Shown: piece by piece, positions 11,362-45,000 of the stretch
Position numbering within the stretch: position 1 is the stretch's first letter
Layout: the number at the start of each line of letters is the position of its first letter
DNA from: Chloroflexota bacterium
GTDB taxonomy: Bacteria; Chloroflexota; UBA6077; FW602-bin22; JAMCWG01
Direction of reading: 5' to 3'
Assembly (NCBI GenBank): GCA_023475235.1
Contig: JAMCWG010000156.1
Span: 1 to 47,669 of the forward strand
DNA: 47,669 bases
The notes under the pieces: model-generated
What the model was told of the DNA's origin: nothing
Database searches by the model: none
Seen by the model: only the letters and a program-made list of their open reading frames with translations
Program-made: the position numbers and the translations under genes

Positions 11362-12573
11362 TCACCGCTGACCGGGCGGCTGGTAGGCCCGCATATAGTC
11401 AAGGACCGTGGTCCCGGATAGTTGATAGGTGAACCACTGGCCCGGGTCGAGGAAGATGCCGAAGGCCGCGTAGCCGACGGCGTAGGGGTCTTTGTACATC
11501 TCGTCGGCCAGCCAGAAGTAATCCGCCGCCATTTGTTCGGCGCTGATGTTGCGCCGCTGCCAGCCCTCGACCAGCGCTGCCTCGGTGAGCACCATCTTGA
11601 CATCGTTTATGCCGGCGGCCTCCAGCGCATCGTGGACCCTGCGGTAGCGCAGCACATACCAATCGGCAGCCGGCTCACGGAAGGTGGTTGCCTTGGGGCT
11701 GGCGTAAGCGTGGATGCCGAAGTACTTGCTGGCCCGAATGGCGTCGGCGAAGTACTGCGGGTACTCCTGAATATCGATGGCGCCCGGCGCATCGTTGCCG
11801 GCCACGGCATCGATGCCATATTGATTCTTCAGCCGCTGGGCGAAGGCCACCTGGAACTCATCCCAGGCCTTGTAAGCGGCGAAATCCCCGCCGCGGACCG
11901 GCTCGTTGTAGCTCATCCACGCATCTACCAGGCCCTTGGTCGGCACAGCCAGTTGGGCGACGTAGTCGGCGAAAGCCTCGCCCCGCTGCCGGGGATTGTC
12001 CAGCGGCTGCTGATGGGCGGTCCGGCGTCCAATGATGACGGCCTTAGGGAAGAGACGCCGGACCTCGCGGATGAATTCCACGTCGGGCTCGGCGAGGAGG
12101 ATGACTCCCGGTTGGGCCCGGAACACCTCGGAGCGGATGTAGTTGCCACCTTTGTAATACACCCCCACACCCATCTTACTCTCCTTGATGATGGGCCGCT
12201 CCGGTCCCGCGGTCGGCAGGGGCGTGGGTGTAGGTGAGGGCCGCGCGGTAGGCGGGGGAGGAGGCGGCGGCTTCGGCGTGGGCGACGGCGGCACCGTCGG
12301 CGTAGCCGTTGGAGTTGGCGGAATCGAGGTGGCGGTGGACGTGGGCGGCGCTGTGCTAGTAGGAGAAGATGTGGTGGTAGGAGAAGAGGTGGCCGTGGCA
12401 AAGATTGCCGGGACGGCGGCCTCCAGGAACGTACGGCGAGCAACCCATCCCAAGCCGGCAAGCAGGAGAACGAGCATCAGTGCGAAGATGATGCGTAGTA
12501 TGATGCGTGGCTGCCAGTTTATGCCTTGCTTGAACACCGCTACATAGTAGCATCCTACTGCGCCGGTACTCAA
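11362..12573 (-). CDS. Membrane-anchored TIM-barrel (glycosidase-like) protein with Thr/Pro linker
   Basis: A 403-residue protein. Residues 23-47 (IILRIIFALMLVLLLAGLGWVA) form an N-terminal membrane anchor. Residues 60-125 are a Ser/Thr/Pro linker ending in a PKPPPPPPP run, a typical cell-surface spacer. Residues 130-400 look like a glycosidase-type barrel: MGVGVYYKGGNYIR, PGVILLAEPDVEFIREV, DAWMSYNEPVRGGD (N-E pair after strand 4, as in acid/base Glu of clan A hydrolases), VLTEAALVEGW (T-E-A at the nucleophile position) and FGIFLDPGQWF. The start is TTG at 12571-12573 or GTG at 12535; neither has a good ribosome-binding site. A mobile element begins 11 bases upstream and may have displaced its promoter. 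Confidence 0.62.
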   Translation of the reverse strand: MSTGAVGCYYVAVFKQGINWQPRIILRIIFALMLVLLLAGLGWVARRTFLEAAVPAIFATATSSPTTTSSPTSTAPPTSTATSIPPTPTATPTVPPSPTPKPPPPPPPTARPSPTPTPLPTAGPERPIIKESKMGVGVYYKGGNYIRSEVFRAQPGVILLAEPDVEFIREVRRLFPKAVIIGRRTAHQQPLDNPRQRGEAFADYVAQLAVPTKGLVDAWMSYNEPVRGGDFAAYKAWDEFQVAFAQRLKNQYGIDAVAGNDAPGAIDIQEYPQYFADAIRASKYFGIHAYASPKATTFREPAADWYVLRYRRVHDALEAAGINDVKMVLTEAALVEGWQRRNISAEQMAADYFWLADEMYKDPYAVGYAAFGIFLDPGQWFTYQLSGTTVLDYMRAYQPPGQR

Positions 12574-12578
12574 GCGCC

Positions 12579-12583
12579 GGCGT
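12579..12583. repeat. Target-site duplication, left copy (GGCGT)
   Basis: Identical to 13178-13182 on the far side of the MITE-like element. Confidence 0.75.
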
Positions 12584-13177
12584 GGTAGGGCCTTTTCAAA
12601 GTCGCCAGCCAGGAATCAGACGGCGCTTCGGTTGCCTTGCCAACGGCAGTTGACCTCACCTCCGGCCTTCGGCCACCCCTCGCCACGGCCCGCCAAAGGC
12701 GGGTCCGCCTCTGGCAGACGAGTCGTGCCCGAAGGGTATCTCGCCAAAGGCGAGTCGCCTGGGCGACCTGCGCCGGGCCGTGACGGCCCAGCGCTACGGA
12801 CCTTCGGAGACCTCTCCGCGCGCGGAGAGGTCGCCACGGCTCGCCATAGGACGAAGTCCTCGCCACGGCGAGTCGCTCGCCAGTCTCCGCAGGCGACTCG
12901 CCTCTGGCGAGAGTCGCCTCGGACACCAACTGGTCACAGAGGCGAGTCTGGCGACCTTCGGAGACCGCCTCCGGCGGGCAGGCCGCCTTCGGCAGACGAC
13001 TCGCCTCCCGCCAAGATGCCTGCGGCACTCTCGCCGTGGCGAGGGGTCGCCTTCTTTGACTGCTGGTGAGGATGGCGGGCCTGCCTATGGCAGGCGGGTC
13101 TGGCGACTGGCGAGGGGCCAGGGGGTGAGGTAAACCTCACGAGCAGCCGGATCAGCGGACTCTGAAAAGGCCCTACC
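12584..13177. mobile_element. MITE-like element packed with GC-rich mini-hairpins
   Basis: A 594-bp element bounded by 20-bp inverted repeats (12584-12603 and 13158-13177) that match at 19 of 20 positions; each end reads GGTAGGGCC then TTTTCA-A/G-AGTC inward. It is flanked by a perfect 5-bp direct repeat GGCGT (12579-12583 and 13178-13182), a target-site duplication. No plausible protein is encoded. The interior is a run of short perfect palindromes with 5-8-bp stems and 3-4-base loops, e.g. CCCGCC-aaa-GGCGGG, CTCGCC-aaa-GGCGAG, GGGCCG-tga-CGGCCC, CTCGCC-ac-GGCGAG and GCCTGCC-tat-GGCAGGC. It directly abuts the IS1182-type element. Confidence 0.82.
12697..12724 (-). repeat. Mini-hairpin core, copy 1 (inside the MITE-like element)
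   Basis: On the minus strand: GACTCGTCTGCC, AGAGGCGGAC, CCGCCT. It differs from the copies at 14033-14060 and 44874-44901 at no more than three positions. Confidence 0.8.
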
Positions 13178-13182
13178 GGCGT
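13178..13182. repeat. Target-site duplication, right copy (GGCGT)
   Basis: Identical to 12579-12583. Immediately followed by the left duplication of the neighbouring IS. Confidence 0.75.
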
Positions 13183-13188
13183 GGGCTG
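13183..13188. repeat. Target-site duplication of the IS1182-type element, left copy (GGGCTG)
   Basis: Identical to 14688-14693; it directly follows the MITE duplication. Confidence 0.7.
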
Positions 13189-14019
13189 GAGAGTGTTGAA
13201 TGGGTCCAAAGCTGAGTCTTAGTCTTCTCCGTTTGGAGACTGTTTCCGCAACCTGAACGAGTTTTCTTCACTAGGGGCGGCGCTAGTGGGTCTGTATCGC
13301 CCCTGGTGCCCCTGCTTAGCCTCGCTTAACCCATGTTTTTGCCTCTGTGTTGTTTTCGGGCACAGCTATGCCTTGGCGAGAGCCTTAACTGCCCCGTGGA
13401 AGCTCACTCTATCCAGCAGAAGGACCATCCGCTTCAAGTTCATCGCTATGGCTGTCATCAGGCTCTGCACCCTGTACTTCACTAGACCTAGATACCGGCA
13501 GCGGTCCAAACCGTGCCAACGCTTTGCCTCGGCGTTCTTCTGCTCTATCTTGTAGCGTTCCTTTAGTCCCGCTTTGTAGTCATCACTAGCCTTCAGATCT
13601 ACCCACAGCCCTTCCGGATATAGCTTGGTCCGGTAATCGTTCAGGCGTAGGGCCGAGCTTTTCCCCCGGCAGAAGAGCATCTCGTGGTTATCTCCATCGT
13701 CATAGCCCCTGTCTCCTGCGTAGACCCTCGCCTCTATGCCTGCCTGTTCGTCCTTCTGCACCAGCTCCGGAAACTGTTGCCCATCTGGCTTATTGCCGGG
13801 GGTTACCACCACCGAGGTGATGATCTCACTCTCGGCATTCACGCTCAGGTGCGCCTTATAGCCGTAGAAGTTCTTGCTCACCTTGACCGTGTTGCCATCG
13901 GTGGTGCGTACCTTTTTCCTCCCCTTGCTGCCCCAAGCAGCGTCCTCATCTCGAGGTCCCTCTCCTCGCTTCTTCCGTTCATCGTCCTTCTTCATATCCA
14001 CATCGGCGACTGTGTGCGT

Positions 14020-14077
14020 GGTCTCCAGAGGCGACTCGTCTGCCGCAGGCGGACTCGCCTCTGGCGAGCCTTTGGCG
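14020..14077. repeat. 58-bp palindromic insertion inside the transposase gene
   Basis: It lies exactly between the codons for VVDA and THTV of the transposase. Its outer arms CCAGAGGCGA and TCGCCTCTGG pair perfectly over 10 bp, and an inner GTCTGCC-GCA-GGCGGAC stem has one mismatch. At 14033-14060 it carries the 28-nt core also found at 12697-12724 and 44874-44901. Confidence 0.85.
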
Positions 14078-14311
14078 AGCATCTACCACCTGAATCTGCC
14101 CAAAGCTGATGCCCTTCTCTTTGGCTAACTGCACGATGCGCTGAAACCGAGCCTCGAAAGCTTCTGCGCCTTCTTTTTGGATAATCCGCTGTTTGAACAC
14201 AGTCAAGGTAGAATGATCAGGGGCTGACTGATTTCCGGCCAGTCCGAGGAAGTACCTTGCTGGCATGTTCTCGTTAGCAAACTCCTCCGTCTGGCGCTCG
14301 GACAGGTTGTA

Positions 14312-14368
14312 TGGTTGCTCGATGCAACCATGGTCATGCCCGTTCGTATCCAATGGGCGTGACCATGG
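14312..14368. repeat. 57-bp double-hairpin insertion inside the transposase gene
   Basis: Two adjacent palindromes: TGGTTGC-tcgat-GCAACCA (14312-14330) and 14-bp arms CCATGGTCATGCCC / GGGCGTGACCATGG (14328-14341 and 14355-14368, 13 of 14 pairing). It adds 19 in-frame residues where related transposases run directly from LLLSY into YNLSERQ. Confidence 0.72.
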
Positions 14369-14602
14369 GTAGGAGAGGAGCAGCATCTTGAAAGGTATGG
14401 CCGGATGATAGGGTACAGGGCCGTACTCTGCACCACCTTTGTAGCAATCGGTCAGGTCTTTGGTCAGTTCCTCCCAGTCGAGAAGGTCTCGCAGGCGGCG
14501 CAGGAAGTGGCCAGGCGCCACAGCCATCTCCAGATAGCCATCTCCCCAGTAGGAATTGCGACCAGACGGGCGGAAGCGGGCGGGCATAGGGCTGACCCCC
14601 AT

Positions 14603-14964
14603 AATCCAGATGCCGCTATTCTGCCCCTTTCTACACGGTCTGTCACTGCCCTCATCCCAGATTCCTGGCCTGTTGTTCAACGCTCTCGGGCTGCGGGCTT
14701 CCATTCCACGGGCAAAGCGATGTACAATAGGTGGCAAGGCGGTCGATGCTGGCATGCTAAATCTGCCATCGAGCCTTTCTGGCGGGTGGGAGGTCGAACA
14801 AAACAGGTGGTTTCGCTATGGACAGCGCGTGTGGGGCAGCATTCCCTTCAAGCATTACATCGCGAGTCACTTTCACAAGGTCCATGGAAGGTTCTCGGTC
14901 AAACCTGCCTCTCAATGGCATATGCTCCATCGAGATGAGCTGGTAAGTAAGGAAAGGAACACTG
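14603..14964. other. IS end plus intergenic leader upstream of the binding-protein gene
   Basis: 14603-14687 is the non-coding end of the IS1182-type element, and 14688-14693 is its target duplication. The remainder up to 14964 holds no convincing gene. GGAAAGGAAC at about 14950 is the ribosome-binding region of the next gene. Confidence 0.5.
14688..14693. repeat. Target-site duplication of the IS1182-type element, right copy (GGGCTG)
   Basis: Identical to 13183-13188. Confidence 0.7.
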
Positions 14965-16656
14965 ATGAAACGGATGTCTCGACTGGTCGGGAAGCTTTTC
15001 GTAGTAGCGATGGTTAGCAGCCTCCTTCTGTCTTGCGCCCCGGCCGCGCCGACGGCTGCTCCCCCAAAGCCGGCTGCTGCCGCTCCAACTCCCACGTCCG
15101 CACCCGCTGCCCCAACCTCCAAGCCCGGCCCCACTGGCGCACCTGCGGCCGCGGCCACGCCGACCGCCGCGGCGAAGATCAAGCGCGGCGGCACCCTGAC
15201 CGAGGCCAACAGTGCCACCTATCCCACGCTGGATCCCCAACTTAGCAGCGCCTTCACCCTGCCGGGCCATCGGATGATGTTCGATGCGCTCTTCCGCTAC
15301 GAGCTGGTGGACGAGAAGACGGCAAAGCAAGAAGCCGTGGGCGAGCTGGTCGATACCTGGCAGATGGTCGACCCCAAGACATTCCTCTTCAAGCTGCGGC
15401 AAGGGGTGAAATTCCACGACGGCAGCGCCTGGAATGCCGATGTGGCGAAGTGGAACCTCGACCGTATGATGACCAACAAGAAGAGTACCGCCAAGACCTA
15501 CGTGGAAGCCATCAACTCCGTGGATGTAGTGGATCCTTCCACCATCCGTGTCAACCTGAAGACACCGTCAGCAGCCTTGTTGGTGAACCTGTCCGGCGTG
15601 GTCGGACCGGTCAGCATCGTGTCCAAGGAGGCCGTGGACAAACTGGGAGAGGACGGCTTCAACGCGCATCCGGTCGGCAGCGGACCGATGCAGTTCGTAG
15701 AGTGGCTGCCGGACAACCGCCTGACGCTGAAGAAATTCGACGGCTACTGGCGGATGGGCGCCGACGGCAAGCCGTTGCCATACATCGATGGGTCTGTCCA
15801 CCGAGTGATCAACGATCCGGCGGTGACGCTGGTGGAGATGAAGGCGGGGACGGTGGATGTGACGGCAGAGCCAGAAGCGAAGGACGTGGCCAGCATCCAG
15901 GCCAACCCCAGCCTGGTTTACTGGCAGCACCCATCCGCCATTAACGGCCGGACACTGGGGGTCAACCCGAAGAATGGGCCATTCGCCAACAACCTGAAGC
16001 TCCGCCAGTCTCTGCTTTATGCAATCGACCGGGGTTCGATGGCGAAGACTCTGAGCTTCGGCATTGGCGAAGCCTATAACTATGTGTACTGGTCGCTCGG
16101 CTACTTGGGCTATGACGCATCCCTGCCGTACTACAACTTCGATCCCGCCAAGAGCAAGCAACTCCTGGCCGAGGCAGGCTACCCGAATGGGACCGACATT
16201 ACTGTTTCCGTCATCGCCCGGCCCCTCGACCAGCGCATCGGCGAGATCTTGAAGCAGATGTGGGACCAGGTCGGCATACGCACCCGAATCGACTCCCTCG
16301 AGCGACTGGCGTGGATCGACAAGCTGCGCAACTACAACTTCGACGTAGGATTCTGGGGCGGAATCGTCGGTGCTGACCCGGACCAGAACACCCGCAACCT
16401 GGCCACCGGCGCCACAGGTAACTGGTCGGGCTGGAGCGATCCTCGTATGGACAAGTGCCTGGAGGATGGCCGCAGCACCTACGACCCTAAGCAGCGCGAT
16501 GAAATCTACAAACGCTGCCAACGGCTGATCTACGACGAAGCATATGTCAGCGGGCTATACCTCTGGCACTGGGGCGTGGCGTACAACAAGGCGGTCAAGA
16601 ACGTGAAGAGCCAGTGGACCGATCTCGACCTCCGGGAGGCCTGGCTCGACCGCTAG
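14965..16656 (+). CDS. ABC-transporter solute-binding lipoprotein (SBP_bac_5, peptide/nickel type)
   Basis: A 563-residue protein. A lipoprotein signal peptide ends in LLLSC with Cys24 as the lipidated residue, followed by an Ala/Pro/Thr-rich spacer (25-70). The mature part has the family-5 layout: RGGTLTEANSATYPTLDPQLSS, LVDTWQMVDPKTFLFKLRQGVKFHDGSAWNADVAKWNLDRM (the family's KFHDG-x-x-xxADD-like signature), YWQHPSAINGRTLGVNPKNGPFANNLKLRQSLLYAIDR and WDQVGIRTRIDSLERLAWIDKL. Members bind oligopeptides, nickel chelates or sugars and deliver them to a permease. No permease or ATPase gene is adjacent, so it is an orphan. The ATG follows AAGGAAAGG. Confidence 0.92.
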   Translation: MKRMSRLVGKLFVVAMVSSLLLSCAPAAPTAAPPKPAAAAPTPTSAPAAPTSKPGPTGAPAAAATPTAAAKIKRGGTLTEANSATYPTLDPQLSSAFTLPGHRMMFDALFRYELVDEKTAKQEAVGELVDTWQMVDPKTFLFKLRQGVKFHDGSAWNADVAKWNLDRMMTNKKSTAKTYVEAINSVDVVDPSTIRVNLKTPSAALLVNLSGVVGPVSIVSKEAVDKLGEDGFNAHPVGSGPMQFVEWLPDNRLTLKKFDGYWRMGADGKPLPYIDGSVHRVINDPAVTLVEMKAGTVDVTAEPEAKDVASIQANPSLVYWQHPSAINGRTLGVNPKNGPFANNLKLRQSLLYAIDRGSMAKTLSFGIGEAYNYVYWSLGYLGYDASLPYYNFDPAKSKQLLAEAGYPNGTDITVSVIARPLDQRIGEILKQMWDQVGIRTRIDSLERLAWIDKLRNYNFDVGFWGGIVGADPDQNTRNLATGATGNWSGWSDPRMDKCLEDGRSTYDPKQRDEIYKRCQRLIYDEAYVSGLYLWHWGVAYNKAVKNVKSQWTDLDLREAWLDR

Positions 16657-44814: not shown

Positions 44815-45000
44815 GGCGACAAGCGGCGTAGCCCGCCCAAGGCGGACGTAGCCCGCCCAAGGCGGACGTCGAAGACTCGTCTGCCGGAGGCGGACCCGCC
44901 TCGCCACGGCCCGCCATAGGCGGCCCGTCCGCCGTAGGCGGAGCTTCGCCCTTCGGAGAGTGAGTCGCCGCAGGCGACTTTGGCGGGCCGCAGGAGAGTA
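44815..45000. repeat. Mini-hairpin cluster, family A
   Basis: A dense run of short palindromes with 3-base loops directly after the MBL-fold gene stop (GCCCGCC-ata-GGCGGC, GTCCGCC-gta-GGCGGA, AGTCGCC-gca-GGCGACT). The 28-nt core shared with 12697-12724 and 14033-14060 is at 44874-44901. No terminal inverted repeat was found. Confidence 0.75.
44828..44867. repeat. 20-bp tandem repeat, two copies
   Basis: GTAGCCCGCCCAAGGCGGAC is repeated perfectly at 44828-44847 and 44848-44867. Each copy contains a GCCCGCC-caa-GGCGGAC type hairpin. Confidence 0.85.

Follow-up and report, generated by a model that had tools for sequence, protein, structure and literature searches.

A transposase gene of a Chloroflexota bacterium is interrupted by a short GC-rich palindrome, which raises the question of whether so small a piece of gene-less DNA is a mobile element and, if so, by what kind of activity it is moved. 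The gene lies in the window, i.e., the whole stretch of 47,669 nucleotides that was analysed (contig C66 of a 2.85-Mb MAG, G000, in 196 contigs and 75% complete). The original prediction held that a 58-bp module parts VVDA from THTV in this gene, shifts the frame, and was inserted precisely, which was taken as direct evidence for mobility. The features of the locus are collected in Table 1.

Table 1. Coordinates of the split transposase, its inserts and related hairpin units in the window.
Feature	Position	Strand	Basis or remark
Transposase, C-terminal part (from THTVADV)	13366..14019	-	PF01609/PF13751; 51% identity to L051
Transposase, N-terminal part (to VVDA)	14079..14587	-	PF05598 DUF772; alignment to L033/L051; start codon inferred from relatives
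58-bp composite double-hairpin element, frameshift	14021..14078	+	Borders as C8:15746, C78:623, C63:28971; absent from relatives
Inner 30-bp unit, GTCTGCC-GCA-GGCGGAC-TCGCC-TCT-GGCGA	14038..14067	+	Nested in outer unit
Second palindromic insert, double hairpin GGTTGC..GCAACC + CCATGGTCATGCCC..GGGCGTGACCATGG	about 14313..14368	+	Inverted repeat
30-bp unit, inner type	12690..12719	-	
27-bp unit, same family as 58-bp element, intergenic mosaic	12741..12767	-	
28-bp unit, same family as 58-bp element	12883..12910	+	
Intergenic mosaic of nested hairpin units, inverted GGGCCTTTTCAAAGTC / GACTCTGAAAAGGCCC ends	12573..13187	.	
Second array, related GC-rich hairpin units	44833..44977	.	

The split transposase and the build of its insert

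The interrupted gene (13366–14587, minus strand) encodes a DDE-type transposase with an N-terminal PF05598 and a C-terminal PF01609 domain which, judged from the NCBIfam ranking (NF033551 IS1182 best, IS5 next, all below the cut-off), is IS1182/IS5-like. Its frame is interrupted between VVDA and THTV, as predicted: upstream of the insert one frame reads ...GQIQVVDA, and downstream another frame reads THTVADVD.... In an alignment, three intact relatives from three other genomes (51% and 42–44% identity in the C-terminal part) are continuous at this site, with VVDAVHTVANV in L032 and L033 and LIDSVHTIADV in L051, so that the net insert in the window transposase is 58 bp. Relatives had been expected to lack exactly these 58 bp, and the three do; none carries the segment as part of the gene. 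A scan of genome contigs for transposase relatives gave distant partial matches only. The 58-bp segment that splits the transposase is confirmed as real, albeit with borders that had been placed one base off, at 14020–14077; comparison with other copies of the family moves them to the positions in Table 1, both placements giving the same protein because a G is repeated at the junction.

The segment is a small inserted palindrome, as claimed, but it is not the basic unit: it consists of a 28-bp unit in which a 30-bp unit of the same build is nested. When the inner unit is taken out, an exact 28-bp unit, GTCTCCAGAGGCGACTCGCCTTTGGCGA, remains, i.e., the outer double hairpin GTCTCC-AGA-GGCGAC-TC^GCC-TTT-GGCGA, with the inner unit sitting at the caret. 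Inspection of copies together with pattern search gives the basic unit as GTCGCC-NN(N)-GGCGAC-TCGCC-NN(N)-GGCGA, 27 or 28 bp in two adjoining hairpins, around a core of 26/27 bp, TCGCC-NN(N)-GGCGA-C-TCGCC-NN(N)-GGCGA, that nearly always has a G on both sides. The ends of the unit are complementary over 5 bp, and the core can be read either as two tandem hairpins or as one cruciform closed by these ends. In single-stranded DNA folding, none of 200 shuffles folds as well as the 58-mer (z -3.55); the 27-mer reaches z -2.26, and its ends, TCGCC and GGCGA, can pair too. The loops vary freely in sequence and length and the stems are nearly fixed, an invariance that is partly imposed by the pattern search; allowing up to three stem mismatches added few decayed copies, and nearly all of the single-mismatch copies are the GTCTCC variant. 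The combination of fixed stems with variable loops suggests that the stems are the part that is recognised.

The same transposase contains a second palindromic insert, missed in the original prediction and unrelated to the 27/28-bp family. It adds a net 54 bp in frame (fold z -5.7), corresponding to 18 extra residues (the PWSRPLDTNGHDHGCIEQ region) that are absent from the three relatives. A first genome-wide search for a family of this palindrome matched the query alone, and a small number of diverged relatives came to light afterwards. Those at L128 (C145:26049) and C82:5298-5326 (GGTNNCTCGATGNNACCAT^GG) each contain a 27-bp unit, located identically in both, i.e., one small element lies within another.

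Copies, nesting and target site

When the DNA of the window transposase was compared with its own genome, only the 58-bp segment matched elsewhere, about 30 times. The strict pattern of the unit yields 36 copies in G000 (22 forward, 14 reverse) and 4 in G004, a genome of the same order and another family; the relaxed pattern, in which GTCTCC/GGAGAC is allowed, yields 54 and 5, respectively, all being counts of exact patterns that miss older decayed copies. By the same exact patterns the 27/28-bp unit is absent from the other 398 genomes sampled across the phylum, and a control pattern, read backwards, has 0 matches anywhere. A count of the module's copies in its genome had been proposed as a check; these numbers show that the copies are many and that the unit family is dispersed. 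A further seven exact 27/28-bp units come from six IMG/VR contigs (L184-L189). Several of these lie in frame within regions that are lipoprotein-like or linkers, and related contigs have them at one and the same position. A blastn search of plasmids and phages with the 27-bp unit gave weak matches only, mostly at chance level, and neither an Rfam scan of window positions 12000-16000 nor a literal literature search for GGCGACTCGCC gave a match.

Among all 1024 hairpins with a five-base stem, TCGCC-N2-3-GGCGA ranks first, with 266 hits on both strands of 783 kb of sampled genome; the survey consists of these 783 kb together with the flanks of listed copies, and part of it was chosen for holding copies. 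The next stem has 104 hits, stems of the same composition have at most 28, and Markov sequence gives 10–20. This excess, together with the 57/58-bp build at five other loci, excludes chance.

Nesting goes beyond the window insert. Removal in silico of all 28 exact units in the sample created 8 new exact units at the joins, and their removal 2 more; at C134 and C11, the nesting has three levels. Since the units enter their own copies, they grow by nesting. The 57/58-bp composite has the same outer borders at six loci, the window included, and the composites of the window and C8 have both inner loop sequences in common, which makes it probable that a composite can move as a whole, too. The units sit most often in the triplex motif BoxC/TM, where 22 of 51 copies lie at the base of its hairpin or within the loop, and a 56-bp variant recurs in three such motifs.

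The target rule is simple. The base after the unit is G in all 51 own copies with flanks, including 29/29 outside triplex-motif sites, against an overall G frequency of 0.32; the base before the unit is G in 29, T in 11, A in 9 and C in 2 of the 51. With neither flank imposed, G stands on both sides, in the same orientation, in 51 of 53 cores. The rule is kept by nested copies, 58-bp copies, the G004 copies and the seven IMG/VR copies. Insertion is precise at N^G: the site gains 27, 28 or 58 bp, and at most one G is duplicated. Given the G on both sides, either the unit starts with G and enters before a G, or a 26-bp core is inserted with a 1-bp duplication of G, and the sequence fits both equally.

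Insertions in other genes

A look for insertion sites inside other genes had also been proposed, and exact empty sites are found for two other transposases. One is an IS110 transposase (C169:17897), where the unit is exactly VARGDSPRR, nine additional residues in frame between LE and GANIKL that are missing from two Alicyclobacillus homologues (58% identity). The other is an IS4 transposase (C97:750); here the unit is exactly SPRRVASGD, again nine residues in frame, between LP and IRLW, and homologues from Calothrix and Nostoc are without this insert. A nine-residue insert is also present in the linkers of six paralogous ABC substrate-binding lipoproteins (SBPs; C43, L159, L160, L161, L164, L166), reading RPGESP(V/P/L)AT in five and RQGESPVAT in the sixth (L164). 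In L166 it lies elsewhere in the linker, giving two positions among the SBPs, and more than 12 SBP-type linkers from the sample, including that at window position 14965, do not have it. The gene for a MidA-like methyltransferase (PF02636; L126, C27:1526; ORF 804-2441, minus) stays open through a palindromic mosaic of ~420 bp; compared with PDB 4f3n, this insert adds about 140 residues in frame and is a composite of the triplex motif and the unit. Additional gene copies, assigned from reading frames only, lie in a C58 transposase (twice), a C22 integrase-type transposase, a C87 2-hydroxyacyl-CoA-dehydratase-like protein and the tail of a C72 NuoA-like protein.

The 27-bp form preserves the frame and occurs in cellular genes too; the 28- and 58-bp forms shift it, and all three for which a gene could be assigned (window, C58, C22) interrupt a transposase. 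Insertions of the 27-bp form within genes would be tolerated because it amounts to nine codons and none of the fixed stem codons is a stop. The 27- to 30-bp double hairpin is among the smallest DNA elements that have been seen as clean insertions in genes. A protein insert of nine residues, such as VARGDSPRR or RPGESPVAT, can be a trace left by mobile DNA. For some of the copies in triplex-motif sites and SBP linkers, the spread may reflect duplication of the sequence that holds them, not independent jumps.

Proposed mode of movement and resemblance to known elements

The reading that we favor, with a probability of about 85%, is that the module represents a non-autonomous, very small transposable element that is recognised by its fold and moved in trans. 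The precise insertion and mobility that had been claimed gain support from the absence of the 58 bp from relatives, the many copies, and the exact empty sites elsewhere, mobility being deduced from empty sites between species. The mobilising activity would recognise the stems and ends but not the loops; a trans-acting enzyme, neither a RAYT nor encoded by the element, would take the folded single strand as its substrate, probably at the time of replication, and the folded copy would be joined 5' of a G. A narrower proposal, which we put forward tentatively and consider possible at best, is that this 26-bp self-nesting hairpin is moved, via its double-hairpin fold and 5' of any G, by an enzyme class that is neither a Y1/HUH RAYT nor a reverse transcriptase; if true, it would be among the smallest substrates of genuine transposition.

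The strongest competitor, albeit an unlikely one, is RNA-mediated insertion, in which a small structured transcript would be reverse-transcribed into the target. It agrees with the precise ends, the copy-and-paste behaviour, the insertion in either orientation and the conservation of the fold, but a search of G000 and G004 (75% and 88% complete) turned up no RVT_1 reverse transcriptase. The corresponding search for a Y1 (RAYT/TnpA) transposase was likewise negative in these two carriers (E<=0.001, with a working control), although Y1 genes exist in 9 of the 29 genomes searched. Because both carrier genomes are incomplete, the two absences are suggestive only.

The Y1 result bears on mobilisation by a RAYT (Y1 tyrosine transposase), to which we assign a low probability. 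REP/REPIN elements are small hairpins dispersed in bacterial genomes, also in arrays (PMC3116915, PMC3733652), and the units resemble them in size, hairpin shape, dispersed copies and arrays. The units have, however, no conserved 5' tag, positions -1 to -4 being variable and the -1 base G, T, A or C; the GTAG/CGTC tags, the 4-5-nt loops and the CCA tail of CGTC REPs (PMC3733652) are absent, and placement is not restricted to extragenic DNA. Of the RPE-like and REP-like elements that the original prediction named for comparison, the module is not strictly REP-like, having no tag and no Y1 gene found in carriers, and the in-frame insertions of its family are RPE-like.

A comparably low probability is given to replication fold-back or template switching at inverted repeats, which would build the arrays without true transposition. 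The frequent position of units at the triplex-motif hairpin and within each other is what such a process would produce, but slippage would leave ragged ends, whereas the units are exact 27-bp pieces with identical ends, and the exact empty sites in the IS110 and IS4 genes show no evident prior hairpin. Fold-back alone is contradicted by the dispersed in-gene copies; changes in the loops may still come from it. Finally, an assembly artefact or a native part of the transposase is highly implausible. Palindromes are difficult to assemble, and the MAG is fragmented, but three relatives lack the insert, and G004 and the IMG/VR contigs carry the element with the same borders.

Several known systems behave similarly to the element favored here. 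The cyanobacterial SDRs, described by Elhai et al. in 2008, are reportedly very small mobile repeats of 21-27 nt, folded and dispersed, said to be nested in their own copies and in other small repeats and confined to a group of relatives; RNA-mediated insertion has reportedly been suggested for them. Unit size, fold, nesting in own copies and in other small repeats, dispersal, confinement to relatives and empty sites match this description; the host group differs, and in-frame gene insertions and a single-G target rule are found for the unit here.

The Rickettsia palindromic elements (RPEs) are palindromes of about 150 bp that occur in frame in protein genes, metabolic genes included (PMC10969869). 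The unit shares their in-frame insertion into unrelated protein genes (nine residues in IS110 and IS4 transposases; SBP linkers) and differs from them in its size of 27-58 bp, well off ~150 bp, its GC-rich double hairpin, the N^G rule and another phylum. Mitochondrial double-hairpin elements and GC clusters (PMC4478555) are also tiny GC-rich palindromes in which loops change more than stems, which merge into larger units and have a short putative target duplication. The GC42 element, for which RNA-mediated insertion has been suggested in yeast (PMC4478555), is organellar, has 42 nt and an AG target, whereas the unit described here is bacterial and uses a single G. The unit resembles SDRs, RPEs and GC clusters in behaviour, a likeness that does not amount to membership in a named family.

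The family bears on how gene-less palindromes of ~26 bp move. Its sequences reveal clean empty sites, a target rule of one base, the signature of fixed stems and variable loops, in-frame insertions and multi-level nesting, and a comparison of carriers with non-carriers of the same order offers a way to test candidate machineries.

Two larger kinds of repeat touch on the units. The favourite host site of the units matches the BoxC / PIT / TM intrastrand triplex motif (PMC4666352), CCCTCNCCC..GGGNGAGGG..GGGNGAGGG, which is a repeat separate from them. A MITE of a DDE transposon would have a target duplication of 2-10 bp, and the unit has at most 1 bp (G). A larger MITE-like repeat with GGGCCTTTTCAAAGTC ends was observed in the window (12573-13187) and at C63:17950-18040, C126:13490-13650 and C136:17040-17140; its core is the triplex motif, often filled with units, i.e., a third layer of nesting.
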